Assembly: GCA_013215875.1 (NCBI GenBank)
Contig: JABSQK010000014.1
Location: forward strand, 1 to 45,107
DNA length: 45,107 nucleotides
Source: Lentisphaeria bacterium
Lineage (GTDB): Bacteria; Verrucomicrobiota; Lentisphaeria; JABSQK01
Direction of reading: 5' to 3'
Shown here: positions 21,200 through 41,836 of the stretch, piece after piece
Layout: every line of letters begins with the position of its first letter
Numbering within the stretch: the first letter of the stretch is position 1
Notes under the pieces: model-generated
The model's database searches: none
Seen by the model: only the letters and a program-made list of their open reading frames with translations
What the model was told of the DNA's origin: nothing
Position numbers and translations under genes: made by a program

Positions 21200-22033
21200 C
21201 TAGCCGCGAGACGGCTCGGTAACACCCTTGGCTTTTAATTCGTCATGATACTCTTTGATCTTAAAATCATTTGCCATGATTTGCTGTAGATGAATCATGC
21301 GTTCAGGTCCAGCCGTATCAATCATCGTTTGCCCAATACAATGGTCAATGAAGAAACGACCTTCTGGGGCCAGCATATTTTGCAAGTCCTCCAGGCGATC
21401 GTCCTCGACGTGCTCACAAAAGTTCATAGTAAACATACGGCGCCGTTCGCTGCCGCCGAATGCTGCATGTTTAAGGTTATGCCAGAAGACAATAATATCA
21501 CCCGGCATCGTTTCCAAAGCCACTGAGGGGACCTCACTGCCATGAATGCCCCAGCTCTTATCTGTATCCTTTCGCAGTTCCTCAACAGTATCTGCATAGG
21601 CATCGCCACAATGATGGCTGCCGGGAATCACCCGTAAGGCACCGGTATCACGCGTCACCGAGTCCAGGTAAAAGGCAATCTTTATACTGGGAATGCGGTC
21701 ACCTTTGTAATCATCGGAATGCCAGTTGGTATCACCAGAATAGTAGTTGCCGTCTCCACTGGTATAATTAAAATCCTCACCGAGAATATCCGCCGCAATA
21801 TCGTGAATCCTGGGATCGTCGAGCAGACTGCTTAGATACACATTTCTACCCGGAAAGGGAAGTAAACACGAACGCTTTGTCAGGTCATGTTCGTTTCCAC
21901 CATGCCCACCGCCATTTTCTTTCCAGACATTTTCAAATTCCTCAATGATCCGTTCTTTGCAGTCATCCAGCAATCCCGGAAAACCCAGATAGCCAAAGGT
22001 ATTAAAAAAATGGTGTTGTTCATCACTTAGCAT
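21200..22033 (-). CDS. Phytanoyl-CoA dioxygenase (PhyH) family protein
   Basis: A 277-residue Fe(II)/2-oxoglutarate oxygenase. The iron ligands are in NWHSDDYKG (His and Asp, about residues 104-106) and NLKHAAFGG (second His, about 189), with RRRMFTMNF giving the 2-oxoglutarate Arg. TGALRVIPGSHHCGD is the family turn. HDLTKRSCLL and the GDGNYYSGDTNWH loop resemble PhyH proteins from Poribacteria- and PVC-type sugar clusters. The ATG lies just 10 bases from the end of the MITE-like element (22044-22217), which therefore makes up the upstream region and may supply or have replaced the promoter. The ribosome site is weak (AGG, 8 bases before). Confidence 0.83.
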   Translation of the reverse strand: MLSDEQHHFFNTFGYLGFPGLLDDCKERIIEEFENVWKENGGGHGGNEHDLTKRSCLLPFPGRNVYLSSLLDDPRIHDIAADILGEDFNYTSGDGNYYSGDTNWHSDDYKGDRIPSIKIAFYLDSVTRDTGALRVIPGSHHCGDAYADTVEELRKDTDKSWGIHGSEVPSVALETMPGDIIVFWHNLKHAAFGGSERRRMFTMNFCEHVEDDRLEDLQNMLAPEGRFFIDHCIGQTMIDTAGPERMIHLQQIMANDFKIKEYHDELKAKGVTEPSRG

Positions 22034-24228: not shown

Positions 24229-26118
24229 ATGATGAAAAAATGGATCCTGATCTTATCCGTACTCAGCTTATGGCTGGCAGTGGCGGCGTGTGCGGGATGC
24301 ACGAGTATCGCTCCTGCTACCAAAGAGAGAGCACACTGGCTGACAAAACAAGATAACCCGGAAGGTAAGCTGCCCAGGCTGACCAAACCACTGGTCCTGG
24401 ATGCGAAACTCGACGAGTGGGAAGCGGCGACGTCACTGTCACTGCGCTACGCATCATATATCTCTAACATCAAGCCAGGCCATGAATGGCGCGGACCAAA
24501 GGACGCCGGCGCTGAAATGTATTCTGCATGGAATGATGAAGGACTCTGTATCGCCGTGCTTGTGACCGACGATGACGTCCATAATGAGCGTCCACCCGGT
24601 TTTGTCTGGCAGCAGGATTGTCTTGAACTCTTTATCGACGGCCGGGGTGGCGAGGCATTCATGAAGCCGCCCTATTCAAAGGGAGCATACCAGCTGTTTG
24701 TACGGCCACCAGTGGGCAAATCCCCGGCCGCAGTGCTCGTTAACGGACGTGACGGTGTAATCGACGGATTGCGCATCGCAGGCAAGCGGACACGGATCGG
24801 TTATATCGTCGAGATGGTTATTCCATGGAAGGCGTTTCCCAATTTCAAACCGGAGGTCGGCTCACCGTTTGGGCTGCAGGTTTCGCTTTGCGATTATGAC
24901 AAGCGCGATAAGGACACCGACCAACCCATGGTCATGAGCTGGCGAGCGGAAAAAACGCTGTATATGAGTCCGCAGAAATTGGTTCGCTATGAATTGGTGA
25001 CAGCTGTGCCTGTCGGAGCAGATGAGCCGCTTGCGTCGGTAGTGAATGTGGATATCCCCCCGGTTATCGATTCAGGCGACTCAGCCACGTTTTCCATTGA
25101 GATAGGCCGGCCGCTGGCACGCATGGCGAAAACGGTCGAAATCGTTGTCCGCGACTGGACCGGGAAGGTGGTGTTGCAGCGGAAAAAGCGTCTAAAGAAG
25201 ATGGCAACGCCCTGGACCCAATCTAAGCAGGCGGTATGCGAATGGACGTTCGGAGAGATCGAAAACGGCGCCTACCAAATCGAGGTGCGACCGAAAGGGG
25301 GCCGAGGTGAGGTGCTGGGTTCAGCAGCGCGGGTTGTCGTCATTGCCACGAAACCTTTTTTGCGTTGGCGTCCAGATAGCAAGCCGACCATCCTGGCTCA
25401 CCGAGGAGCGCCACCACCGGGTCTGCCGGAAAACAGTATTGCCGCGTTTGAGCAGGCCTTGGCCGATGGTGCGGACTTTATCGAGATTGATGTGCGTCAG
25501 AGCAAAGACGGTGTGTTCGTGATCCTTCATGACGGAGGGCTGGGACGTACCACTACAGGAGGTCATGATGATGTGGTCGCCGAACATACGCTTGCTGAAC
25601 TGAAAACTTTCTTTCTAAGAACTCAAGCGGGAAAGGTCAGCACCCATAAGATACCGACATTGAAAGAGACCCTTGATTGGGCGCGTGGGAAAACGGTGCT
25701 TTTCCTGGATTTCAAGATATTGAATATCGAGAAGGTCATCGAATTCATACGGGATGAAAAGGCTCAGACCTTCTGCGTCCCTATGACCTATCATTTTGAA
25801 CAGACCCTTGCCATTCACCGAATGGCGCCTGAAATGGTGATCTACGCAAATGCCGACGGCAAGAGAAACAACGTGGAGAAGCTCTTGAAAGGTAATGTTC
25901 CCAAGGATCGCTTGTTCGTCTGGGTCAGAAACACGAACAAGAGCGTGATCGATCTCATGCATGATAATGAGATCATGGTGCAGTACGGAGGGGTGCAGGG
26001 CAGAGGAGGAAAATCGCTCGAACCTTATTTGGGCTGGCTGGAGAAGGGAATCGATTCGTTCAACACCGATGACGTACCAAGAGCTGCTGCAGCCATACGG
26101 GAATTCAACAAGAAATGA
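24229..26118 (+). CDS. Lipoprotein with CBM9-like domain and glycerophosphodiester phosphodiesterase domain
   Basis: A 629-residue chimera. Residues 1-23 form a signal peptide whose MMKKxILILSVLS start is shared with the SGNH hydrolase at 28869; LAVAAC gives a lipobox. Residues about 40-260 look like a CBM9/DOMON-type carbohydrate-binding module (PLVLDAKLDEWEAA, YSAWNDEGLCIAVLVTDDDV, DCLELFIDGRGG, VEMVIPWKAF). A beta-rich linker leads to a GDPD barrel (about 385-629): ILAHRGAP, PENSIAAF, FIEIDVRQSKDG, VILHDG and a late FNTDD. GDPDs split glycerophosphodiesters to glycerol 3-phosphate and an alcohol. The gene body is GC-richer than its neighbours (35 of 60 bases in 25081-25140), which suggests transfer. 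A second ATG follows the first directly. Confidence 0.8.
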   Translation: MMKKWILILSVLSLWLAVAACAGCTSIAPATKERAHWLTKQDNPEGKLPRLTKPLVLDAKLDEWEAATSLSLRYASYISNIKPGHEWRGPKDAGAEMYSAWNDEGLCIAVLVTDDDVHNERPPGFVWQQDCLELFIDGRGGEAFMKPPYSKGAYQLFVRPPVGKSPAAVLVNGRDGVIDGLRIAGKRTRIGYIVEMVIPWKAFPNFKPEVGSPFGLQVSLCDYDKRDKDTDQPMVMSWRAEKTLYMSPQKLVRYELVTAVPVGADEPLASVVNVDIPPVIDSGDSATFSIEIGRPLARMAKTVEIVVRDWTGKVVLQRKKRLKKMATPWTQSKQAVCEWTFGEIENGAYQIEVRPKGGRGEVLGSAARVVVIATKPFLRWRPDSKPTILAHRGAPPPGLPENSIAAFEQALADGADFIEIDVRQSKDGVFVILHDGGLGRTTTGGHDDVVAEHTLAELKTFFLRTQAGKVSTHKIPTLKETLDWARGKTVLFLDFKILNIEKVIEFIRDEKAQTFCVPMTYHFEQTLAIHRMAPEMVIYANADGKRNNVEKLLKGNVPKDRLFVWVRNTNKSVIDLMHDNEIMVQYGGVQGRGGKSLEPYLGWLEKGIDSFNTDDVPRAAAAIREFNKK

Positions 26119-28653: not shown

Positions 28654-28923
28654 AATCGGTTCTCCAAATTTTTGCCTTACAATGGATGCAAAACAGAACT
28701 GGGCAAGTTGTGCTGGTTTATTAGATTTCTACGTGAAGACTGAAGGGAAATCAGGCCATTAGCCTATGTATATCGCCCAGCATGACCTTGTCATCTCTTA
28801 GGTATAGGGTATTATAAATGTGACTAGTTGTGTATGAATATAAATGAAAGTAACAATGAGAAAGTTGAATGATGAAAAAATTAATCCTAATCTTATCCGT
28901 ACTCAGCGTAGGCATGACAGTCT
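28491..28923. repeat. Duplicated fucosidase-5'/promoter/signal-peptide segment, copy 2 (intact context)
   Basis: This is the likely source copy of 23867-24291, since here both flanking genes are intact. Offsets between copies change by 13 bases at the CATGGCG deletion and by 2 bases in the intergenic part; 114 of 120 bases match over 28761-28880. Confidence 0.85.
28788..28815 (+). promoter_or_regulatory. Sigma-70-type promoter of the SGNH operon
   Basis: TTGTCA (28788-28793), 16-base spacer, TATTAT (28810-28815), about 54 bases before the ATG. Conservation of both boxes in the duplicate supports the call. Confidence 0.6.
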
Positions 28924-30479
28924 CGGCTGCTGATTCCTACCTTAAAAAGAATGATGTAATACTCACGCTTGGGGATTCCATTTCAGCGATGAAATTCTAT
29001 CAGAAACAGATGGAAGATGTTTTGGCGGCCGTATACCCCGATGCGGGAATCAAGGTCTATGATTTTGGCTCTGGTGGCAAGAGTTCATCCTCTGGCCTGG
29101 GTCAACTGCAGGCGGGTTTAAGTAAAAAGCCAACAATGGTATTATGCATGTTTGGGGTGAACGATACCGTTTGGAGCAGTGCAGGGGCTGACAAGAAAGC
29201 CGCAAGCTTTAAGGCGAATATCAAGAAAGTAATTGAGAAATGCCAGGAATTGAAAATTCCCATTTTCCTACTTCGCGAGACGCATATTTCCCATACAGCT
29301 GCGAAGTCAGATGGCTGGCAAGATGGCGTTAACAAATGTTTGCTGACGATCTTCAAAGCCCAGGATGAATTGGCTGCAGAAATGAAGGTACCTGTTATTG
29401 ATGTATACGGTTATTATAAAAGTGAATTAGCAAAAGCCGGAAAAGCGGATGTGAAATATGAATTTACGCCCGACGTTGTTCATCCAACCCAACCGGGACA
29501 TGCGGCAATGGCAACAGAAGTAATGAGAGCCTTGGGCACAGGCCTACCGCTTGCTACCGGCGACCGTGGTCCAATACATCTAAAGACCAGTCCGATGAGT
29601 TTTGAGATTCAATCAGCCAATGGCACAGCCACAGCCAAGGATTTGGTCGAGGTCACCATTAAGATTAAAAGTCCAAAAGCTGAAGATGCAGAACTGGGCC
29701 TCGCCTTTGTTGGCGGTCACTTGACAACTAAAACGAAACTTAAAGCAGGTGAACAGTCTGTTTCATTTAAAGTTCCTCTGGCTAAATTGCCAAAGCGCTG
29801 GGACCATACCCCGCTTTACTTTTATATAAAAACAGCTGATGGGTTCAGTGGCGGACACGCGCTCTTTGCATATTCAAAGATGGCCTCCCTACCTTATGCA
29901 CCAGCCAACGATAAACTTTTTCCTCATGCTGGTAAAGCGAAAGCACCTGTCAGCAATGTAAAGCTTAGTAAAAAGGGCAAAGTCGTCAGCATTTCCTTTG
30001 ACTGGAATGATGAGTTAATCGTTCGCGGACCAGCCACAACGAAGCACAAATTTGGTATGAAAATAAACGGACCACTCGATCTGAATAAAAGAGATGCTCA
30101 GCTTTGTGATGCGCTTGAGTTTATGCTTGACCTGAGAAAGAACGAGGGTATTGGTCGCCAGACTGCCGATACTGAGAGTAACCCCAAAGGCATACTCCGG
30201 GTCGGTGTATGTTACGATAAAGATGGCAAAATTTTTATTATGAGTCTACCCGAAGTGAAGGCAACGATTAAAAATGTAAAAGATAAATCATACCTCTTAA
30301 CTATTGAGACGGCAGATGAGAGTTTGGACTTTTCGTTTACATTTTCTGTCACTGATTCGAAAAAGTATGGCAGCGGTGTTCAGTACAAACACACAGGCAA
30401 TGCCCATGTATCCAAGGAAGCGATGAACTTCATTCGCTTCAGTACTAAACCCGGTATTTTCTACCGCGTCGGTTACTAA
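28869..30479 (+). CDS. Secreted SGNH/GDSL hydrolase with C-terminal carbohydrate-binding-like domain
   Basis: A 536-residue exported esterase-type protein. The signal peptide is residues 1-21 (cleaved after VSA). The SGNH catalytic blocks are in order: LTLGDSISA (Ser), YDFGSGGKSS (Gly), CMFGVNDTVW (Asn), and TPDVVHPTQPGH (Asp-x-x-His, about residues 202-205). From about 245 on the protein is beta-rich, with a CBM9-like pattern in the last 180 residues (ISFDWND, ALEFMLDLRK, LRVGVCYDKDG). Such enzymes deacetylate or deacylate glycans, which suits a polysaccharide cluster. It is the first gene of a six-gene operon running to 36039. An alternative second ATG is three bases downstream. Confidence 0.85.
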   Translation: MMKKLILILSVLSVGMTVSAADSYLKKNDVILTLGDSISAMKFYQKQMEDVLAAVYPDAGIKVYDFGSGGKSSSSGLGQLQAGLSKKPTMVLCMFGVNDTVWSSAGADKKAASFKANIKKVIEKCQELKIPIFLLRETHISHTAAKSDGWQDGVNKCLLTIFKAQDELAAEMKVPVIDVYGYYKSELAKAGKADVKYEFTPDVVHPTQPGHAAMATEVMRALGTGLPLATGDRGPIHLKTSPMSFEIQSANGTATAKDLVEVTIKIKSPKAEDAELGLAFVGGHLTTKTKLKAGEQSVSFKVPLAKLPKRWDHTPLYFYIKTADGFSGGHALFAYSKMASLPYAPANDKLFPHAGKAKAPVSNVKLSKKGKVVSISFDWNDELIVRGPATTKHKFGMKINGPLDLNKRDAQLCDALEFMLDLRKNEGIGRQTADTESNPKGILRVGVCYDKDGKIFIMSLPEVKATIKNVKDKSYLLTIETADESLDFSFTFSVTDSKKYGSGVQYKHTGNAHVSKEAMNFIRFSTKPGIFYRVGY

Positions 30480-30504: not shown

Positions 30505-32082
30505 ATGTCAGAACATAGATTATCAGATGATGAAGTTTCGCGCTTTATTGTAGACGGCTATCACCGGGTCGATACAGACCTGCCCCCGGAATTGCATGAG
30601 CACATTACTAGCCAAATGCAGGAGCATATAACAGAGGGGGTAAACCCAGGCGATAATATTTTGCCCTTAATTCCTGAAATGTACCAGGTACTTGAATCGC
30701 CTGAAATGAGATCTGCCCTGGAAAGTCTCTATGGCAAAAATTATATGATCATGCCGCATCGGCATACACATGAATTGAATAACAACGATGATGGTTCCGG
30801 ACGCACATGTTTACACTATTTCTTCCACCAGGATTCTTGCGCGTCCCCCGCGCACAACTGCCACCATTACCCGAGACATGGCTTGATCCTTTATTACTGC
30901 CAGGATGTAGATATCGACTTTGGGCCCACCCATGTAATACCCGGAACGCAATACAATCGCGGGCTGCAAAAGGAAGATTCCGAAAATGCCGTCGCCGGTG
31001 TAGCAAAACCGGGAACCGCTTATATTACTCATTTCGACATTGGCCATGGAGCCGGTGTTAACCGCAGGGATGACGAGACTCGCTATATGACAAAGTTTGT
31101 TGTGACCCGTTGCCAGGAACCGAATAAATCGGACTGGAACAATCAGCGCGAGCATTGGCAAATGCCCGACGGCACTACAACCCTGTACCCCAATGAAATA
31201 GGCTGGTGCCATATCTGGGATTGGATGCGTGGCGAAGATGAGCGCAGTGCGAGTTGGCATAATCAAATAGACGAAACCACTGCAGTCATTCTTAGCAGTG
31301 CCGATAACGCCGAAGAGCGTGTTCGGTCCATTAAGGCAATTTCGCGTTTGACACACGTAGATGATGAAGCAATCGCAACGCTTATAAGTTCGCTTGATGA
31401 GGGCGATCAGATCGTCCGGAATGCGGCGATATATGGACTTGCTGCGATCGGCGAAAAAGCCGTACCCGCCTTAATTGAACATTTGCAGAGCTGCAAAACG
31501 GGTGAGGAAAAACCGTCCATGATGACACGTCCCCCGGGTTGGGGAAACCCCATGGTTATGGAAGATGCCGGCCTGGCACTCTCAGCACTGGGTGAACCCG
31601 CTGTACCTGCATTGATCGAATTACTCGAGGAAAACACAGCGAGTGAATGGGCCCAGATAAATGCTGCCTTCGCACTTGGCGATATTGGCAAGCCTGCGGC
31701 AAAAAGCCTGCCCACACTCGTTAGCCTGTTAAGCAGATCGCCACATATTGCCGAAGCAGCGCTTGATGCGATGGGAACGATTGAGGGTGATCTCGGCCCT
31801 GTTCTCGACCCTGTAGCAGACATGATGAACGATCGCGATATCGACGACGACCGGAAAGCCGCTCCGTTAAAAGCTGCCATGATGCTTGCCCGAGTCGGCC
31901 AGGGCGCTGAAGCGGTAGAGGAAAAATTACTGCAGGCCATGACGAGTCACAGTTACCATATACGTTATTCAGCCGCCCATGCCTTAAACCGTATTGGCTC
32001 CGAAGCAGCAAATAAAGCTGTTTATGATTTTCTCTTGTATAGCAGCTGGAGCCCGGATGTCGAAGGAGCAAGTAAAAAATGA
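30505..32082 (+). CDS. PhyH dioxygenase fused to HEAT-repeat domain
   Basis: A 525-residue protein in two halves. Residues about 1-245 form a PhyH-type oxygenase with HYFFHQDSC (iron His and Asp, about 109-111), GPTHVIPGTQYNRG (the family turn), and IGHGAGVNRRDDETRY (second His and the 2-oxoglutarate Arg). Residues about 255-520 are roughly seven HEAT-type helical repeats, for example RNAAIYGLAAIGEKAVPALI, AQINAAFALGDIGKPAAKSL and IRYSAAHALNRIGSEA. The repeats probably bind a partner protein or a large substrate. The fusion is unusual in length and domain order. The stop overlaps the UxuA-like start (ATGA), and CGGAG precedes its own ATG. Confidence 0.83.
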   Translation: MSEHRLSDDEVSRFIVDGYHRVDTDLPPELHEHITSQMQEHITEGVNPGDNILPLIPEMYQVLESPEMRSALESLYGKNYMIMPHRHTHELNNNDDGSGRTCLHYFFHQDSCASPAHNCHHYPRHGLILYYCQDVDIDFGPTHVIPGTQYNRGLQKEDSENAVAGVAKPGTAYITHFDIGHGAGVNRRDDETRYMTKFVVTRCQEPNKSDWNNQREHWQMPDGTTTLYPNEIGWCHIWDWMRGEDERSASWHNQIDETTAVILSSADNAEERVRSIKAISRLTHVDDEAIATLISSLDEGDQIVRNAAIYGLAAIGEKAVPALIEHLQSCKTGEEKPSMMTRPPGWGNPMVMEDAGLALSALGEPAVPALIELLEENTASEWAQINAAFALGDIGKPAAKSLPTLVSLLSRSPHIAEAALDAMGTIEGDLGPVLDPVADMMNDRDIDDDRKAAPLKAAMMLARVGQGAEAVEEKLLQAMTSHSYHIRYSAAHALNRIGSEAANKAVYDFLLYSSWSPDVEGASKK

Positions 32083-33053
32083 GCCGCTCAATCGATGAAA
32101 TTGAACGGCCCGATGGCATCGCCTTTTCTTATAAAATACCATCAGATCCAACGGACAAGGAATTGCAATTTGTTCGCCAACTTGGCATAAGCAAAGTCTA
32201 TACATGGCTTGAAGATGACCAGGCGAACTATGCCTATATTTCAGAGCTAAGCGATCGCCTCGCCACCCATGGGCTCGAACTTTCAAATGCCGGTACACTT
32301 AGGCTCAGTAAATCCGCCTCGATCCATTTAGCCTATCCAGATCGCGATAAAATCATCGATGAGTTTAAAGAATTTATCAGTGATCTTAAGCGGGCAGGGG
32401 TGCATACCACGACCTTTACTTGGGAACCGGATTGTGTACAAAGCACTGAAAATATGAAAGGGCGGGGTGACTCCATTACCCGTGCAGTCGAGCTTGAAGC
32501 GCTTAAGAAACAGCCACCAACCCGCGAAGGCAATTACAGTCATGAGCAAATTTGGGATAACTTTGCCTATTTCATGCGAGAGATTATGCCCGTAGCCGAA
32601 TCCGTCGGCATTCGTTTATCGCTGCATCCCAACGATCCACCCATGCCGGATATAAACGGTGTTCCCTGTCTCATCTACAATCGCCAATGTTACGACCGTG
32701 CTTTTGAAATTGCCGACAGTGATTGGCTCGGCATGGAATTTTGCTGCGGTTGCTGGCTCGAAGGCGGCGATCAATTTGGCAATATTCTCGAAGACATCGA
32801 AAAATATGTCTCCGCTGGAAAAGTGTTTATTGTCCACTTTCGCAATGTCAGCAGTCCGCTGCCAAACTTTGAAGAATCCTTCCTCGATGATGGCTATATG
32901 AACATGCACACCGTGATGGAAACATTTATAAATGCGGGCTTCCGTGGTAATATGACACTTGATCACAGCCCTTCGATGGCCTATCCCATGGCAGAGAAAG
33001 CCTATGCTATCGGCTATATGAATGCCCTGAGACAGTCATTGAGCAAGGGCTAA
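32079..33053 (+). CDS. Mannonate dehydratase (UxuA)-like protein
   Basis: A 324-residue TIM-barrel protein. SLHPNDPPMPDINGVPC, MEFCCGCWLEGG, VHFRNVSS and DDGYMNMHTVM match UxuA blocks that hold the manganese ligands (Cys, His, His and a late Asp in LDHSPSM). Mannonate dehydratase converts D-mannonate to 2-keto-3-deoxy-D-gluconate in glucuronate breakdown. The protein is about 70 residues shorter than the usual E. coli form, so a related acid is possible. The start overlaps the previous stop and AAGGAG precedes it. It ties the operon to uronic or aldonic acid metabolism, which fits an acidic glycan. Confidence 0.82.
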   Translation: MSRSIDEIERPDGIAFSYKIPSDPTDKELQFVRQLGISKVYTWLEDDQANYAYISELSDRLATHGLELSNAGTLRLSKSASIHLAYPDRDKIIDEFKEFISDLKRAGVHTTTFTWEPDCVQSTENMKGRGDSITRAVELEALKKQPPTREGNYSHEQIWDNFAYFMREIMPVAESVGIRLSLHPNDPPMPDINGVPCLIYNRQCYDRAFEIADSDWLGMEFCCGCWLEGGDQFGNILEDIEKYVSAGKVFIVHFRNVSSPLPNFEESFLDDGYMNMHTVMETFINAGFRGNMTLDHSPSMAYPMAEKAYAIGYMNALRQSLSKG

Positions 33054-33056
33054 TCT

Positions 33057-34292
33057 GTGACAACGGATTTTACCCGTAAAGAATTCATGACTTTGCTTGG
33101 TCTGGGCTTGGCCAGCAGCCAACTAAATACAGTGTCGGCAGATGACAGCATCGCCGCGGAAACTGATAAGCAAGCGAGTTGGACAGATCTGCGCAAACAA
33201 TTTCTCTTACCCACCAAACTCAGCTATTTAAATAATGGCTCACTCGGTCCTTGCCCACGAATCGTTTTAGCAAAAACGATTGCTGCTTTGCGCGGGCTTG
33301 AGCAAAATCCTGTGCATGAGTTTTGGGGCAAGCAATTTAAACAGACAGAAATTATTCGTAAGAAATTGGCAAACTTTGTTCATTGTCAAAGCGGCGAAAT
33401 AAGTATCACACGCAATACCACGGAGGGAATGAATGCGATCGCTCAAGGCATTCAGTTTAAACCGGGTGATCATATATTGACGACCGACCAGGAACACGCA
33501 GGCGGCTTTCTTTGCTGGCAGTATTATGCAAAACGGGAAAACCTGAAACTCGAAAAAATAAAAATTTCAAGTACTGATTCATCCGCGGCAATTGTTAATA
33601 AATTTAGATCAGCAATTACCGACCGTACACGAGTTATTAGTTTGAGCCATATTACCTATACGACCGGGCACCGCCTGCCTGTAAAAGAAATTGCCGAATT
33701 GGCCAGGAAGAATAAAATTCTGTCTGTTGTTGATGGTGCTCAGGCGCTGGGCATGATTCAAGTAAACCTTAAGGGCCTGGGCTGCGATGCCTACGCCAGC
33801 AGCACACACAAGTGGTTGCTTGCCCCTAAAGGCACGGGAATTCTTTATATTCGCCAGTCGGCTGCAAAAGAGATTGCACCGCTAATTCGTGCGGCCGGAC
33901 CAGGAACCTATTCGAGTAGTTTTGGCAGTGGCGATTTGCCGGGAATGATTGGCCTTGGCGCGGCACTCAATTTTCAAAATGCCCTGGGACCTGATAAAAT
34001 CGAAGCACATGCCATGTCCTTACAAAAACAATTGCAGCAGGGTTTGAAGAAAATGAAGGCGGTTAAAATGATCAGCCCGGAACTAGTCAGCCAGCGCTCG
34101 GCTCTGACATGTTTCGAAATTAAAGGAGTTGCTGGATCTAAAGTAGCGGCGAAGCTTTCAAGCGATTTTAATACGACAGTAAAAACAGTATACCATGGCA
34201 ATGACCAGTACTTGCGGGTCTCCACACACCTGTATAATACCCGGGAAGAGATCGAACAATTTCTGAAAAACCTCAAAAAAGTGACCGCTTAA
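33057..34292 (+). CDS. Class V aminotransferase-fold (cysteine-desulfurase/isopenicillin-epimerase-like) PLP enzyme with Tat-like N-terminus
   Basis: A 411-residue PLP enzyme; GTG start 3 bases after the UxuA stop, with AAGGG upstream. Residues 6-28 (TRKEFMTLLGLGLASSQLNTVSA) look like a Tat-type signal, with R-K in place of R-R and cleavage after SA. YLNNGSLGPCP, ITRNTTEGMNAIAQG, DGAQALGM and SSTHKWLLAPKGTGIL follow, the last with the PLP lysine (about residue 251). Related proteins in PVC genomes carry such signals. Reactions include desulfuration, epimerisation and transamination; the substrate is not clear. An exported PLP enzyme between a sugar dehydratase and a Kelch protein is unexpected. 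Confidence 0.76.
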   Translation: MTTDFTRKEFMTLLGLGLASSQLNTVSADDSIAAETDKQASWTDLRKQFLLPTKLSYLNNGSLGPCPRIVLAKTIAALRGLEQNPVHEFWGKQFKQTEIIRKKLANFVHCQSGEISITRNTTEGMNAIAQGIQFKPGDHILTTDQEHAGGFLCWQYYAKRENLKLEKIKISSTDSSAAIVNKFRSAITDRTRVISLSHITYTTGHRLPVKEIAELARKNKILSVVDGAQALGMIQVNLKGLGCDAYASSTHKWLLAPKGTGILYIRQSAAKEIAPLIRAAGPGTYSSSFGSGDLPGMIGLGAALNFQNALGPDKIEAHAMSLQKQLQQGLKKMKAVKMISPELVSQRSALTCFEIKGVAGSKVAAKLSSDFNTTVKTVYHGNDQYLRVSTHLYNTREEIEQFLKNLKKVTA

Positions 34293-34303
34293 AGGACGAG
34301 TGA

Positions 34304-35275
34304 ATGAGTACTACAAATAACTATCAATGGGTAAAAGTAACTGACCATGCAGAATTTCCTCCGCGCGATGGCGTCGGCGCATTGGTCTATCACGACGAAC
34401 TTTATATTATTGGCGGCTGGAATCCTATCGATAAACAATACTATCCGCGCGATTGCGTGAACGATGTCTGGCGCTCCAAAAATGGCGCTAACTGGGAACG
34501 GATAAAAGACAATGATTATACCCGTGACAAAGCACCGGAACAATGGGAAGGTACCCATACCGCTGGCTATGTCGTCTACCAGGATAAGATGTGGATTGTT
34601 GGTGGTGACCCGTTGCAAGGGCATTACCAATCCGAAGTTTGGAATAGTTCCGACGGCATAGACTGGCATCATGTAAACGAGGGGCACCCCGTACCATGGG
34701 CACCGCGGGTCTTGCATTATACATTTGTGCTCAATGATAAACTCTACGTTTTAGGCGGACAGACATTACCCCAGTTTGCCCCGGCCCCGGAACTCTTTTA
34801 TCACGATATCTGGTGTACGGAAGATGGCATTCATTGGGAAGAGATCGAAATGAAAACCCCCTACACGCCACAGCGTGGGTTAATTTGTGGCAATGCAGTT
34901 TTCAAAGATCGTGTCTGGTTAATCGGTGGCGGCGGCTACGAAACCGATAACCGACCTTATGTTTACAATAATGATGTATGGAGTTCCGATGATTGCACCA
35001 ATTGGACCTGTCATACAGCGAATGCCCCGTGGACTGGTAAGCTCTATCATAACGTCATTGTCTTCGATGAGAAACTATGGATCATTGGCGGCCAAAGCAG
35101 TACAGAAAATACCAATGATGTATGGTATTCATCCGATGGTAAGGATTGGACTGAAGTTCCCGATTCACCCTGGGCGAAACGCCATGCCACAGCACTATTT
35201 GATTTTGATGATAAACTCTGGCTCATGACCGGAAATCATTTGGATAACGATATCTATTATCTTAAAAAGGATTAA
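34304..35275 (+). CDS. Kelch-repeat beta-propeller protein
   Basis: A 323-residue protein without signal peptide. It is built of repeated blades, each with a DELYIIGG-, DKMWIVGG-, DKLYVLGG-, DRVWLIGG- or EKLWIIGG-type strand followed by a NDVWxSxDGxxW strand, spaced about 50-60 residues apart, so a six-bladed Kelch propeller. Related propellers include sialic-acid mutarotase NanM and many glycan-associated proteins, so a mutarotase or sugar-binding job is possible. It starts 11 bases after the PLP enzyme in the same operon. No export signal is seen, so the role would be cytoplasmic. Confidence 0.82.
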   Translation: MSTTNNYQWVKVTDHAEFPPRDGVGALVYHDELYIIGGWNPIDKQYYPRDCVNDVWRSKNGANWERIKDNDYTRDKAPEQWEGTHTAGYVVYQDKMWIVGGDPLQGHYQSEVWNSSDGIDWHHVNEGHPVPWAPRVLHYTFVLNDKLYVLGGQTLPQFAPAPELFYHDIWCTEDGIHWEEIEMKTPYTPQRGLICGNAVFKDRVWLIGGGGYETDNRPYVYNNDVWSSDDCTNWTCHTANAPWTGKLYHNVIVFDEKLWIIGGQSSTENTNDVWYSSDGKDWTEVPDSPWAKRHATALFDFDDKLWLMTGNHLDNDIYYLKKD

Positions 35276-35280
35276 GAACC

Positions 35281-36039
35281 TTGTCTTTAACTAAATTGCA
35301 AATCGACCATTATCATTCCCGTGGTTTCATCGTTATACCCAATCCATTATCCGATGAAGCGATGGCTGAAATTGATACCCTGCAAAAGGAGATTGAACCG
35401 CGCTGGAGCGAAATGGAATTTCCTGGTAATGTTAATCCGCTTGCAGCTCAGATGTTAATGGCTGGCGAACCGATATTTGAGATGATTGAAAATCCGGGAC
35501 TGATTGAAATGGCCAAAGAGATTCTCGATGTTGACCGTGTAGAAATCGCCGCCTTTGGCATGGGCGATTCATCCCTGGCAGTTGGCGGCGAACAAAAACA
35601 GGTGCAATGGCACTCGGATAATTTTGGCAATGTGAAACAGGTCGCCATCCGCGTGGGACTCGATCGCCATGATGGTGACAATGCACCTCTACGAATTATT
35701 CCCGGCTCTCACAAACGCGATGTGGCTGAGTTTAAGCAAGAGTTATATGAAAATGAAATGGCCTCCTGTCCGGAAGAGATCCCCCCCAAATCTTTGTTTG
35801 CCAAGCACCCGGATGAAATAGAAATCATCCTCGATACACCGATCATGCTTGTATGGACAGCGAATTGTTGGCATTCTACAGGCAAGAAAACATCGACCCG
35901 TCTGCGCCGTGTGGTTACCTGGCACTATTTCGCACCGGGCTACGACAACCCCTTCCAAGCCACCGTATTACATACCCTCGATGGCGTCTGGCAGAAATGG
36001 TCAGGCGAACGAAAAAAACTCTGGGGTTTGTCCGAGTAA
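35281..36039 (+). CDS. Phytanoyl-CoA dioxygenase (PhyH) family protein, last operon gene
   Basis: A 252-residue Fe(II)/2-oxoglutarate oxygenase with TTG start, 9 bases after an AAGGA site that lies over the Kelch stop. VQWHSDNFG (iron His and Asp, about residues 104-106), NCWHSTGKK (second His, about 198), TRLRRVV (2-oxoglutarate Arg) and APLRIIPGSHKRD are the family blocks. The C-terminus HTLDGVWQKWSGERKKLWG is found again, diverged, at 36915-37001. The last gene of the operon is followed by a terminator hairpin and a REP-like repeat. Confidence 0.85.
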   Translation: MSLTKLQIDHYHSRGFIVIPNPLSDEAMAEIDTLQKEIEPRWSEMEFPGNVNPLAAQMLMAGEPIFEMIENPGLIEMAKEILDVDRVEIAAFGMGDSSLAVGGEQKQVQWHSDNFGNVKQVAIRVGLDRHDGDNAPLRIIPGSHKRDVAEFKQELYENEMASCPEEIPPKSLFAKHPDEIEIILDTPIMLVWTANCWHSTGKKTSTRLRRVVTWHYFAPGYDNPFQATVLHTLDGVWQKWSGERKKLWGLSE

Positions 36040-37175: not shown

Positions 37176-39926
37176 ATGAAAATCCGCTTGGCTTACACAC
37201 TATTGATAATTGCCGCTATGAGTACTGCTCGTGCCGGGTATATCGAGGATAAGGATGGCAAGACCATTATTCATGTGGTCTGCGCCCCTGCAGTTCTGCC
37301 GAATCCCCTGAATACCTCACCATTCGGTAAAGCCGAATCCGCTGGCGTTAAGCTGTTCAAGAAAAAGTTCAAACAGATCTTCATCGAAAAATATCGTGAT
37401 AAGTATAAGGCAAATCCCGAAAAATACGGCACGCACAATTGGGATAATGTTGAAGTTAACTTCATCAAAGCAACTGGAATACGTGTGGAAGGTGTCGAAA
37501 CAGACCTTCTACAAATTGCCGGAGATATTGCCCCGGATATCCTTTACGTAAACTTCAGAAAGTCGGATACCTATATCCGCTCTGGCTTTCTCTACCCGTT
37601 GGATAAAGCTGAAGACGGCTATCTCACGGACATGACTCAGGAGGAATTGGACTTTCGTATTAACAAGAAGATTTGGCCAGTCATCAAGCGCAAGGGACCG
37701 CAGGGCAAAAAACAGGTCTGGGCGATTCCCTACGGTGGCGCTATCGGCAAAGTATTGATGTTTCGTAAGGACCGCTTCGATGAACTGAAGATTCCCTATC
37801 CCGATAAAGACTGGACCTGGGATGATATGATGGCCGCTGCCAAAAAACTGACAGATCCTGCAAACGGCTATTATGGCTTGTTGCTCGGTCGTGGCATTCA
37901 CGAATCCTGGCACTGGATTACCTTTCTGTGGTCAGCCGGTGGCGAGGTCATGGTCTACAATGAAAAAACGGATACCTGGTCTTGCACCTTTGATACGGAT
38001 GAAGCGGCTGTCGCTCTCGATTTTTATACGCGGATGAGCGCCGAAAAGTGGATCGATGCCAAAGGCAAAGTGCGGCGCGGTTACTCCAGTAAAGATGCTG
38101 CCGAAAGTTCCTACAAAATTTGGAACCGTGGCCAGATCGGTATGATGCAGGACTATGTGGACGAGAAACTTTTTTCTCAAATAAATCCTGAGACCACCGG
38201 CATGGCCCCGGTGCCCCTGGGACCAACAGGTATTCGCGGTGCCGAATTGAATTCGCGGATGATGGGCCTGTATGCAAAGATTAAACATCCTGCTGTTCGG
38301 GATGTGGCCTGGGAATATATGAAACATTACGATTCCAAAGAGACCTCGGCGCTAAAAACGAAAATCATGGTCGAAGGCGGCCTCGGACGCTACGTCAATC
38401 CAAAGTATCTGCGCATGTTCGGCTACGGTTTTATGGAACGCTTATCACCCAAAGGCTGGGTGGAAACCTTTAACATCGCTATCGCTTCTGGTAAACCCGA
38501 ACCCTATGGGAAGAATTCAAACATTGCCTATGACTTGATGACCAAGCCGCTCCAGGAAGCCGAGCAGCTAATGCTCAATAATAAGCTGCCGAAGAATAGA
38601 GAGGCCCGTCTAAAAATCTTGAAAGCGATACTGGTAAAAGCCAATGCCAGGGCCAATGAAGAAATGATCGGCGTCATCAGCCCAGAGGAGCGTCGTAACC
38701 GTCGCATTGCTGCGGTTAGTGTACTGATCTGTGTCATTATTGGCTTTGTCTTTGTCTTTAAACGCATCTTTAAAATATTCTCCCCGCCCGAAACCTACGG
38801 AATTAAAAAGAAGAAATGGGATTTTAAACGCTATTTCTGGGCCTATATGCTGCTTTTACCCGCTGTCCTCTGCATACTTGTCTGGCAATATATACCATTG
38901 CTTCGCGGCTCTTATATGGCGTTCTTTGACTATCAACTGGTCCTGGAATCCAGCTTTGTGGGCGTTGACAACTTCGGTGATCTGCTTTGGAATAGGGACT
39001 TCTGGGTGAGCATCTGGAATGCAATTCGCTACAGTGGTATGGTCTTGGCCTTCACCTTTCTACCCCCTATTATTTTAGCTATTCTGCTTCAGGAAGTGCC
39101 CAAGGGCAAGATACTCTTCCGGACGATTTATTATCTCCCGGCGGTCATCTCGGGTCTTGTTGTCATCCTCCTTTGGAAGCAGTTTTATGAGCCATCGGAG
39201 AATGGTGCTTTAAATGCCATCGTCCTGCAAATTCCCTTAATCGGATTCGTTTTAATTGGCTTAGCCATTTTTGCACTGCTCAGTGTGTTCGGAGTTCGCC
39301 TGCGTCTTCATGAAATGAAATGGCAATCAAATGCCTTTTTTATAGCTGGTGTTGTATTATGCGGCTCGGTTATTTCTCTTGGTAAAACAATCATGATTAA
39401 AGATGGCGAAACCCTGGTATCCGCTTTACCGCATCTAGTCTCTCGCCTTTTCAATGTGATGCCGGAACCAAGTAACTGGTTAGCAAACCCGGACACAGCA
39501 ATGATCTGTTGTATTGTACCCATGGTCTGGGCCGGCATGGGACCGGGTTGCTTGATATATCTGGCTGCCTTGAAAGGAATCCCCGATGATTTCTATGAGG
39601 CCGCAGATATCGATGGGGCAAATTTTATTGATAAAATCCTCTTCGTCGTTTTCCCAAATCTAAAAGCTTTGATTATCATCAACTTCATTGGCGCCTTTAT
39701 CGCATCGTGGTATACCGCAACGGGTGCCATACTAATGATGACCGGCGGTGCTGCTAACACTGAGGTGGTTGGCCTGCATATTTGGAAGAAGGCGTTTACC
39801 TATTTGAAGTTTGGGCCGGCAACAGCCATGGCCTGGGTCCTGGGATTCATGTTGATTGGGTTCACAATGCACCAACTTAAAATCCTTTCGAACCTGGAAT
39901 TCAAAACAACCGGGGGGGATGACTAA
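37176..39926 (+). CDS. Sugar ABC transporter: solute-binding protein fused to MalF-type permease
   Basis: A 916-residue fusion. Residues 1-20 are a signal peptide (cleavage after ARA). Residues about 24-500 form a family-1-like solute-binding protein (DILYVNFRKSD, WAIPYGGAIGKVLMFRKDRF, WTWDDMMAAAKKLTDP, LLLGRGIHESWHW). A membrane helix follows at about 511-530 (IAAVSVLICVIIGFVFVF). A MalF-like permease fills about 553-910, with the cytoplasmic EAA loop EAADIDGANFIDKILFVVFP (about 807-826) that contacts the ATPase. Normally the binding protein and permease are separate polypeptides; here the receptor is tethered to its channel. The stop overlaps the second permease (TAATG). No ATPase gene lies in the window, so it must be supplied from elsewhere. 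The ribosome site is weak. Confidence 0.84.
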   Translation: MKIRLAYTLLIIAAMSTARAGYIEDKDGKTIIHVVCAPAVLPNPLNTSPFGKAESAGVKLFKKKFKQIFIEKYRDKYKANPEKYGTHNWDNVEVNFIKATGIRVEGVETDLLQIAGDIAPDILYVNFRKSDTYIRSGFLYPLDKAEDGYLTDMTQEELDFRINKKIWPVIKRKGPQGKKQVWAIPYGGAIGKVLMFRKDRFDELKIPYPDKDWTWDDMMAAAKKLTDPANGYYGLLLGRGIHESWHWITFLWSAGGEVMVYNEKTDTWSCTFDTDEAAVALDFYTRMSAEKWIDAKGKVRRGYSSKDAAESSYKIWNRGQIGMMQDYVDEKLFSQINPETTGMAPVPLGPTGIRGAELNSRMMGLYAKIKHPAVRDVAWEYMKHYDSKETSALKTKIMVEGGLGRYVNPKYLRMFGYGFMERLSPKGWVETFNIAIASGKPEPYGKNSNIAYDLMTKPLQEAEQLMLNNKLPKNREARLKILKAILVKANARANEEMIGVISPEERRNRRIAAVSVLICVIIGFVFVFKRIFKIFSPPETYGIKKKKWDFKRYFWAYMLLLPAVLCILVWQYIPLLRGSYMAFFDYQLVLESSFVGVDNFGDLLWNRDFWVSIWNAIRYSGMVLAFTFLPPIILAILLQEVPKGKILFRTIYYLPAVISGLVVILLWKQFYEPSENGALNAIVLQIPLIGFVLIGLAIFALLSVFGVRLRLHEMKWQSNAFFIAGVVLCGSVISLGKTIMIKDGETLVSALPHLVSRLFNVMPEPSNWLANPDTAMICCIVPMVWAGMGPGCLIYLAALKGIPDDFYEAADIDGANFIDKILFVVFPNLKALIIINFIGAFIASWYTATGAILMMTGGAANTEVVGLHIWKKAFTYLKFGPATAMAWVLGFMLIGFTMHQLKILSNLEFKTTGGDD

Positions 39927-41836
39927 TGCCAATCATTTCCGAAATCGGGCGGCGATCTCTCAAGGTGCGCCTGCTCATTGGCAGCATCTACATCCTGCTC
40001 ATCATCGGCTCGATCACCATGGTGCATCCCTTCATTCTGATGATTGCGGGTTCAACAAAATCGGCAGTGGATACACCAGAGGCCAAGCTGATTCCAGAAT
40101 TTATTATCAATGATGAGGCGCTGTACCAGAAAGAAACCGAGGCTTTGTTTAACGACGATTTCAGAATCATGAAACAGGTTTATCATACAGAAGACTTTAT
40201 ATCCTTTCGTATGATGTCTATTCCCACGGCATCGAATGACGCATTAGTCGATGAATGGGAAGCCTACCTGAAGCAGCGCGAGCTATTGCCTTATGTCGCG
40301 AACATGGGCCACTTCACCTCTACCGTCGGCACCACACCCAGGAACCTCAGAGCGCTAAAAGCCACTTACATTGAAAGCTACAAGGATATCGACAGCATAA
40401 ACGATCACTTTGACGTTGAGTTTGTATCCTGGAATTATTTTAAGATTTATCCAGGCAGATACCTTGGACGCAACCAAAAATACTACAAAACGCCCTTTCT
40501 TGATTCCACCCACGCATTCAGCCTAACCCTTCCCAAACATGATCTATTCTTCTTCAGTCTAGAGGGATTTTACAAGAATGAATTTCTGAAGACCCAGTAC
40601 AGCATGGAAATCGATTCCTACAACGCCTCCCATGGCACGAGCTATAAAAGCTACAACAGCCTGCACCTGGACAGGACCTTTCCCAGCGGCGAAGGGCGGA
40701 CCAAAAAGGAACAGGAAGACTGGAACGACTTTGTTCGCAATCTCTTTAACCTCCTGTGGATTCGTTCCGATCAGACCGCCGCAGAGGGCTACAGGGATTT
40801 CCTTATGGCCAAGTACGGCACAATGAAGAATCTCAATAACTCATACGGTACCAGCTATGAAAAGCCGGCAGATATAGTCTACCCAGAACAGTGTCCGGTG
40901 TCGGGCTCCTCTGCATCGGATTGGGAATCCTACCTGCAGGGTTGGAAAGATCCGGAAACCGCAACAATCAATGAGATGCCGATTAAATCAATATCCATAA
41001 CGGGAACAGATTTCTGGTTCCAGGATTTTCTAAAATCAAAATATGGCTCCCTTGAGAAAGTGAACCAAGCGTGCGCCACATCCTTTAGCTCCTTCAGTGA
41101 TATTACACCCCCACAGCGAGACTGGCACTACAGACATTTTCTAAAAAACCGCTCGTCGATCAAGAAGGAGTTTATGTTCCGCAACCTGATTACTGTTTTT
41201 GACTTCGTCGTCATTCATGGACGTGCCATTTTCAATACAGCCTTCTACTGTGCGCTGGCTATTCTCACTGCCTTGATTGTTAATCCTCTGGCGGCCTATG
41301 CATTGAGCCGCTACAAACCGCCATCCCAGTATAAAATGCTCTTGTTCCTGATGATGACCATGGCCTTTCCACCAATGGTCACCCAGATCCCGATCTTTCT
41401 AATGATCCGTGAATTTCAAATGCTCAATACCTTTTGGGCGCTAATCCTGCCGGGCGTCGCCAATGGCTATGCTATTTTTCTACTCAAGGGCTTTTTTGAC
41501 TCCCTGCCCAGGGAGTTATACGAGAGCGCTGAGATTGACGGTGCCAGTGAATTCAGGATTTTTTGGCAGTTCACCATGGCCTTGTCCAAACCGATACTTG
41601 CGGTTATCGCCCTACAGACCTTCACCGGAGCCTATGGAAATTTTATGATGGCCTTACTGATCTGCCAGGACGAAAAAATGTGGACAATCATGCCATGGTT
41701 ATACCAACTACAGATGAACAGCGGTGAAGGCGTTGTTTTTGCCTCCCTGATTTTAGCATCCGTACCCACATTTCTCATCTTTGTATTTTGTCAAAATATC
41801 ATCATGCGCGGGATTGTCGTACCCAGCGAAAAATAG
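39926..41836 (+). CDS. Sugar ABC transporter MalG-type permease with a large periplasmic repeat insertion
   Basis: A 636-residue permease, more than twice the usual length. The first membrane helix is at about residues 15-38. The remaining helices run from about 425 on, with the EAA loop ELYESAEIDGASEFRIFWQF (about 531-550). Between them lies a periplasmic loop of about 370 residues with four similar units spaced about 72-76 residues apart, starting near 143, 218, 290 and 366. The clearest pairs are DFLMAKYGTMKNLNNSYGTS and DFLKSKYGSLEKVNQACATS. Such K-Y-G/L-N/Y-G-T-S units resemble motifs of beta-galactosidase-type glycosidases, so the insertion may bind sugar. It is translationally coupled to the upstream fusion gene. 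Confidence 0.8.
   Translation: MPIISEIGRRSLKVRLLIGSIYILLIIGSITMVHPFILMIAGSTKSAVDTPEAKLIPEFIINDEALYQKETEALFNDDFRIMKQVYHTEDFISFRMMSIPTASNDALVDEWEAYLKQRELLPYVANMGHFTSTVGTTPRNLRALKATYIESYKDIDSINDHFDVEFVSWNYFKIYPGRYLGRNQKYYKTPFLDSTHAFSLTLPKHDLFFFSLEGFYKNEFLKTQYSMEIDSYNASHGTSYKSYNSLHLDRTFPSGEGRTKKEQEDWNDFVRNLFNLLWIRSDQTAAEGYRDFLMAKYGTMKNLNNSYGTSYEKPADIVYPEQCPVSGSSASDWESYLQGWKDPETATINEMPIKSISITGTDFWFQDFLKSKYGSLEKVNQACATSFSSFSDITPPQRDWHYRHFLKNRSSIKKEFMFRNLITVFDFVVIHGRAIFNTAFYCALAILTALIVNPLAAYALSRYKPPSQYKMLLFLMMTMAFPPMVTQIPIFLMIREFQMLNTFWALILPGVANGYAIFLLKGFFDSLPRELYESAEIDGASEFRIFWQFTMALSKPILAVIALQTFTGAYGNFMMALLICQDEKMWTIMPWLYQLQMNSGEGVVFASLILASVPTFLIFVFCQNIIMRGIVVPSEK

Follow-up and report, generated by a model that had tools for sequence, protein, structure and literature searches.

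A common bacterial fusion of a PhyH-type oxygenase with a HEAT-repeat solenoid

In this work we analysed a gene of a Lentisphaeria bacterium that encodes a PhyH-type oxygenase and a HEAT-repeat solenoid in one protein. The gene lies in a window of 45,107 nucleotides (the whole stretch of DNA that was analysed) and is the second of six genes that follow one another on one strand, separated by 25, -4, 3, 11 and 5 bp. The genes of this run and the features of the fusion gene are summarized in Table 1; the coordinates given to the gene in the initial annotation were right. Elsewhere in the window are another PhyH gene of a different subfamily (21200–22033, minus strand), an ORF that combines CBM9-like and glycerophosphodiester phosphodiesterase domains (24229–26118), and two ABC transporter ORFs, one of 916 amino acids that contains both a solute-binding protein (SBP_bac_1) and a permease (BPD_transp_1; 37176–39926), followed by one of 636 amino acids with a C-terminal permease domain (39926–41836).

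Table 1. Genes and features of the run that contains the PhyH-HEAT fusion (positions in the window)
Feature	Position	Strand	Remarks
GDSL/SGNH hydrolase	28869..30479	+	First gene of the tight run; signal-peptide-like N-terminus by eye
PhyH-HEAT fusion gene	30505..32082	+	525 aa, ATG start; ORF, Pfam, AlphaFold2 model
PhyH-type Fe(II)/2OG oxygenase domain	30505..31233	+	Residues 1–243; Pfam, alignments, fold matches
Codons H108-Q109-D110	30826..30834	+	Q109 is the mark of the smaller Q class
HEAT solenoid	31309..32040	+	Residues 269–512, seven helix pairs; HEAT_2, model, alphaRep fold matches
UxuA / xylose-isomerase-like TIM barrel	32079..33053	+	4 bp overlap with the fusion gene
Class V aminotransferase-fold PLP enzyme	33057..34292	+	
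Kelch beta-propeller	34304..35275	+	
Unfused PhyH protein	35281..36039	+	Different subfamily, 12% identity in alignment

Both halves of the protein are recognized by Pfam. The PhyH profile (PF05721) matches residues 56–190 with 28.7 bits for a cutoff of 22 (E 2e-6), and HEAT_2 reaches 85.1 bits for a cutoff of 27.7 (E 4.3e-24), with the HEAT_PBS and HEAT profiles also exceeding their cutoffs. In the alignments the putative iron ligands are H108, D110 and H181, and they are accompanied by R193; these residues, which from their positions we take to be the iron ligands and the 2OG-binding arginine, are identical in all 85 full-length sequences of the family alignment, that of the window protein counted, in agreement with the intact iron site noted in the initial annotation. 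The AlphaFold2 model, made from an 82-row alignment (mean pLDDT 86.2, pTM 0.91), consists of a beta core followed by helices from residue 269 to residue 512, paired as 269–280/287–296, 302–315/317–329, 354–362/364–375, 381–394/396–410, 413–425/431–441, 452–478 and 484–497/500–512. The C-terminal half is therefore a real HEAT domain, and the estimate of about seven repeats was correct, seven pairs being counted when the single long element 452–478 is treated as one pair. No signal peptide was seen by eye in the fusion protein, which is probably cytoplasmic.

A single protein sequence, used as query of genome contigs, found no relative, and an alignment of the three fusions of its own genome, used in the same way, found 93, of which the best 80 were kept. 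The two domains occur in the same order, aligned to residue 420 or beyond, in 79 of these 80 loci, a proportion that favours fused loci because patterns of the PhyH part served to choose the loci and the entire fusion was the query by which they were ranked; the exception, L070, is cut by a contig end. This recurrence rules out an artefact of ORF joining, and PhyH and HEAT are truly one protein, as initially described. Both Pfam domains were found in 82 of 82 members scanned, PhyH at E values up to 0.001. The record titles of the relatives name Paenibacillus, Cohnella, Bacillus, Neobacillus and Mesobacillus, and further Latescibacterota, Gemmatimonadetes, Armatimonadetes, Chthonomonadaceae and two Gammaproteobacteria bins, so that the search for other fusions called for by the initial annotation yielded them in several phyla. 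One title is probably outdated: L018 is labelled Gemmatimonadetes, yet its genome (G390) belongs to the same phylum as L033, a Latescibacteria record. At E ≤ 1e-60, matches occur in 72 of the 104 genomes from the family to which Paenibacillus filicis (L020) belongs, and in the phylum of L033 46 of 64 genomes match, with up to nine matches per genome; the per-genome matches include some PhyH-only stretches, and the counts are lower bounds. A P0001-like group (36–41% identity) is present in 26 of the 64 genomes of the L033 phylum, with one match each at E ≤ 1e-85. Several Latescibacterota copies (e.g. G541:C54 and G544:C46) contain in-frame TAG or TGA stops and may therefore be decaying, and the fusion ORF at L019:5105–6763 carries about 50 extra N-terminal residues that, judged by eye, look like a HicB-like domain.

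From these frequencies the fusion is common. It is rare in the sampled part of its own phylum, as it was found in two of 387 genomes, own included. Three of the 387 match at E ≤ 1e-10 (first-look counts that are lower bounds, scoring being capped at three per genome): the own genome, G347, which has a full fusion of 495 amino acids with 42% identity, and G001, which has the PhyH half only. Among 59 near genomes eight match at E ≤ 0.001, own included, and the matches outside the own genome are partial. The own genome (5.49 Mb in 876 contigs) contains two more fusions with 30% identity, L002 and L003, the latter ending at a contig edge, together with L004 and L005, which are unfused and of the same PhyH subfamily, and L006, which runs off a contig end and could be of either form. 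The initial annotation had allowed that the fusion might prove to be a common and characterised family: common it is, and no description, characterisation or substrate of it was found in searches of an open-licence library, so that it is a real and common variant of the PhyH kind that is apparently uncharacterised. Poribacteria carry many PhyH proteins, in an article whose main text does not contain the word HEAT (PMC3909097), and in the available text of another article PhyH and HEAT-like proteins are mentioned apart and are not joined in a single protein (PMC6697440). Four members (P0001, L020, L032 and L002) were scanned with the NCBIfam models, and none of them attains a cutoff: the best score of P0001 is 41.9 for a cutoff of 220 bits, the L020 and L032 members stay below every cutoff, and L002 gives no match.

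A tree of 59 chosen PhyH-domain rows, rooted for drawing only, comprises 36 fused rows of the main type, three of a long type, one other fused row and 19 unfused rows. All 40 fused rows lie on one side of a single branch with support 97/97 and all 19 unfused rows on the other, and the simplest reading of these sequences is therefore one old joining of PhyH and HEAT that has been kept since in several phyla. The unfused relatives L004, L005, L109 and L111 stop after the oxygenase (260–298 amino acids) and share with the fusions R86, H89, H108, D110, Y130, D178, H181, N186, R193, M195, K197, R202 and W211, but they have Q, not K, at position 109, and K109 occurs in none of the 19 unfused rows. 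The long type (L105, L106 and L107, from the genomes of L096, L018 and L049) is a second PhyH-HEAT form of 635–673 amino acids with an insertion within the PhyH part.

Residue 109, between two of the iron ligands, divides the fusions into two classes, since 76 of the 109 aligned rows have K there and 33 have Q; the window protein is a member of the Q class, the smaller one. Residue 302, in the HEAT part, changes with it: all 76 K rows have E there and 29 of the 33 Q rows have Q, the other Q rows carrying E (two), N (one) or K (one), and residues 484, 516 and 519 mostly follow the same split. In one automatic alignment, four divergent fused forms have K109 with E302 in four of four cases, and Y310 as well. 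Among the 76 K-class rows, 20 of which are from outside Bacillota, the HEAT part has a mean pairwise identity of 0.44 (lowest 0.25), and 22 of its positions are at least 95% conserved. Eleven of these are polar, charged or aromatic (E302, Y310, R417, E421, R484, Y485, R487, R514, W515, C516 and T519), and the last seven are identical in all 76 rows. In the model, residues 302, 417–421 and 484–487 lie close to where the first helix of repeat 2, 5 and 7, respectively, begins, and 514–519 come after the last modelled helix; because of these positions the conserved residues may share one edge of the solenoid.

Such conservation at 44% mean identity makes a mere scaffold unlikely from the sequences. 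A HEAT part that serves only for oligomerisation or stability would account for the catalytic core residues being common to fused and unfused proteins, and for the three long fused forms, which keep E302 and Y310 and are without R417, R484, Y485, R487 and W515; yet seven HEAT residues that never vary in the K class go beyond the need of a scaffold, and we hold this explanation for distinctly unlikely. The long forms, whose oxygenase half also departs from the others at R86, H89 and D178, nevertheless indicate that the conserved edge is not general. The window protein itself has E at 417 and S at 514, where nearly all relatives keep R, and for this reason the function of its HEAT part may be altered; it retains the catalytic residue set. 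As to the covariation, of the 24 positions that covary most closely with 109, 14 are in the PhyH half and 10 in the HEAT half, and the K/Q split closely tracks the tree, so that the pattern would be the one expected from shared descent alone.

The initial annotation had suggested that a protein or large polymer could dock on the HEAT arm as the substrate, a protein side chain then being hydroxylated. HEAT solenoids commonly bind proteins, and the conserved polar and aromatic positions of the solenoid suit this idea. The neighbours of the other fusions, which the initial annotation had also singled out for inspection, speak against it, since no constant partner gene was found, neighbours differ between groups, and an AraC-type regulator is the commonest neighbour in Bacillota, a hint that the function is inducible and concerns small molecules. 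In addition, the conserved HEAT residues change together with residue 109, though this also tracks the tree. In Bacillota a divergent upstream neighbour is present at 400 bp or less in 43 of 53 loci, and AraC-type regulators match 46 of the 105 flanking proteins of these loci, counted on either side, upstream or downstream (the tally covers 53 of 55 loci, L048 and L083 being left out, with genes picked as longest ORFs). One AraC-like cluster is divergent at position -1 in 41 of the 80 loci. Outside Bacillota, the 125 flanking genes of 24 loci include no family with more than eight members, PhyH (eight) being the most frequent. The frequent AraC-type regulators, together with the variety of the other neighbours, therefore point to an enzyme that is inducible and acts on a small molecule, not to one with a fixed protein partner, and make docking unlikely.

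UxuA-related TIM barrels are found in 14 of 27 loci (the window, L018 and L102 among the 27). A functional partnership with such a gene was considered and rejected, as 10 of the 14 loci come from related Latescibacterota and have a common gene order, 10–15 UxuA-like genes are present in each of three of these genomes, and in G347 the closest relative is on a different contig from the fusion gene. For these reasons the UxuA-like neighbour was treated as context specific to the window.

We tentatively favour, with a probability of about 0.4, a reading in which the HEAT arm has a fixed place on the oxygenase and contributes to the shape of its pocket, which would receive a small polar substrate. 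The protein would be a PhyH-family Fe(II)/2-oxoglutarate oxygenase, by predicted activity, with the solenoid as a fixed second domain packed rigidly against it. The edge formed by the first-helix starts of repeats 2, 5 and 7 and by the C-terminal tail would reach the mouth of the active site and complete the pocket, and the substrate, perhaps derived from a carbohydrate or an organic acid, would be hydroxylated or O-demethylated in an inducible catabolic pathway. The pTM values of the window model and of a second model, of the L033 member (0.91 and 0.90), may be taken as an indirect sign that arm and oxygenase pack together, and the joint change of 109 and 302 and the high pTM, neither being proof, would agree with a role of the arm in the active site no less than with docking. 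A small-molecule setting is also found in the window, where the run includes esterase-like and UxuA-like genes. A more precise proposal is that the arm itself supplies active-site residues, 109 (K or Q) pairing with 302 (E or Q) and setting, with the C-terminal R-W-C/D tail, two substrate classes, the solenoid being part of the pocket; this is conceivable but doubtful.

The family consists of bacterial oxygenases that are fused in several phyla, often in more than one copy, and that have no NCBIfam name, as judged from the four members scanned. If the solenoid shapes the catalytic pocket, HEAT repeats would here be put to an unusual use, and two residue signatures might predict the substrate class. 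The AraC-type regulator that adjoins the fusion in named Paenibacillus strains offers a route to the inducer, and hence to the substrate.

By sequence and by fold, the best matches of the HEAT half are the alphaRep and PBS-lyase HEAT families (alphaRep: Z 18.1, rmsd 1.9, 140 aligned residues). The alphaRep proteins are designed binders without an enzyme and have only the repeat type in common with the window protein. Deoxyhypusine hydroxylase also associates HEAT repeats with iron-dependent hydroxylation, but it is a di-iron enzyme whose metal is held in the repeats by His-Glu pairs, and residues 256–525 of the window protein contain no H-E pair. The PhyH half has the same core as the PF05721 proteins EctD, SptF, FtmOx1 and PHYHD1/FJS, with the H-x-D...H motif and the arginine. 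FtmOx1 matches the model with Z 18.0 and rmsd 2.8 over 194 aligned residues, and known PhyH structures cover about residues 3–205 at 13–18% identity, some with a few residues of the arm. Among the fold matches listed, no PhyH structure has a HEAT domain by its title, and the aligned range runs into the HEAT part and stops there for 25 of the 34 PhyH rows of the window protein model and for 18 of the 32 of the L033 model, an extension that for most amounts to a few residues beyond the 190–194 of the core. PHYHD1 is not among the best 50 fold rows of either model, which excludes nothing.

In profile comparisons, the PhyH half matches SptF with E 4.5e-8 and ectoine hydroxylases with 5.6e-4 and 8.1e-4. 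A bacterial counterpart of PHYHD1/FJS, that is, an O-demethylase of 2'-O-methyl nucleosides or methylated sugars, would be suited by a UxuA-like neighbour, which could serve sugar use; the match of the profile to PHYHD1 is however weak (E 0.005 over 52 profile positions), and SptF, ThoJ and a leucine hydroxylase score better, so that we give this assignment a slim chance. Several PhyH-family proteins, bacterial ones included, are reported to demethylate 2'-O-methyl nucleosides (PMC12709175). By analogy, and over a weak sequence link to PHYHD1, this activity suggests one possible chemistry for the fusion.
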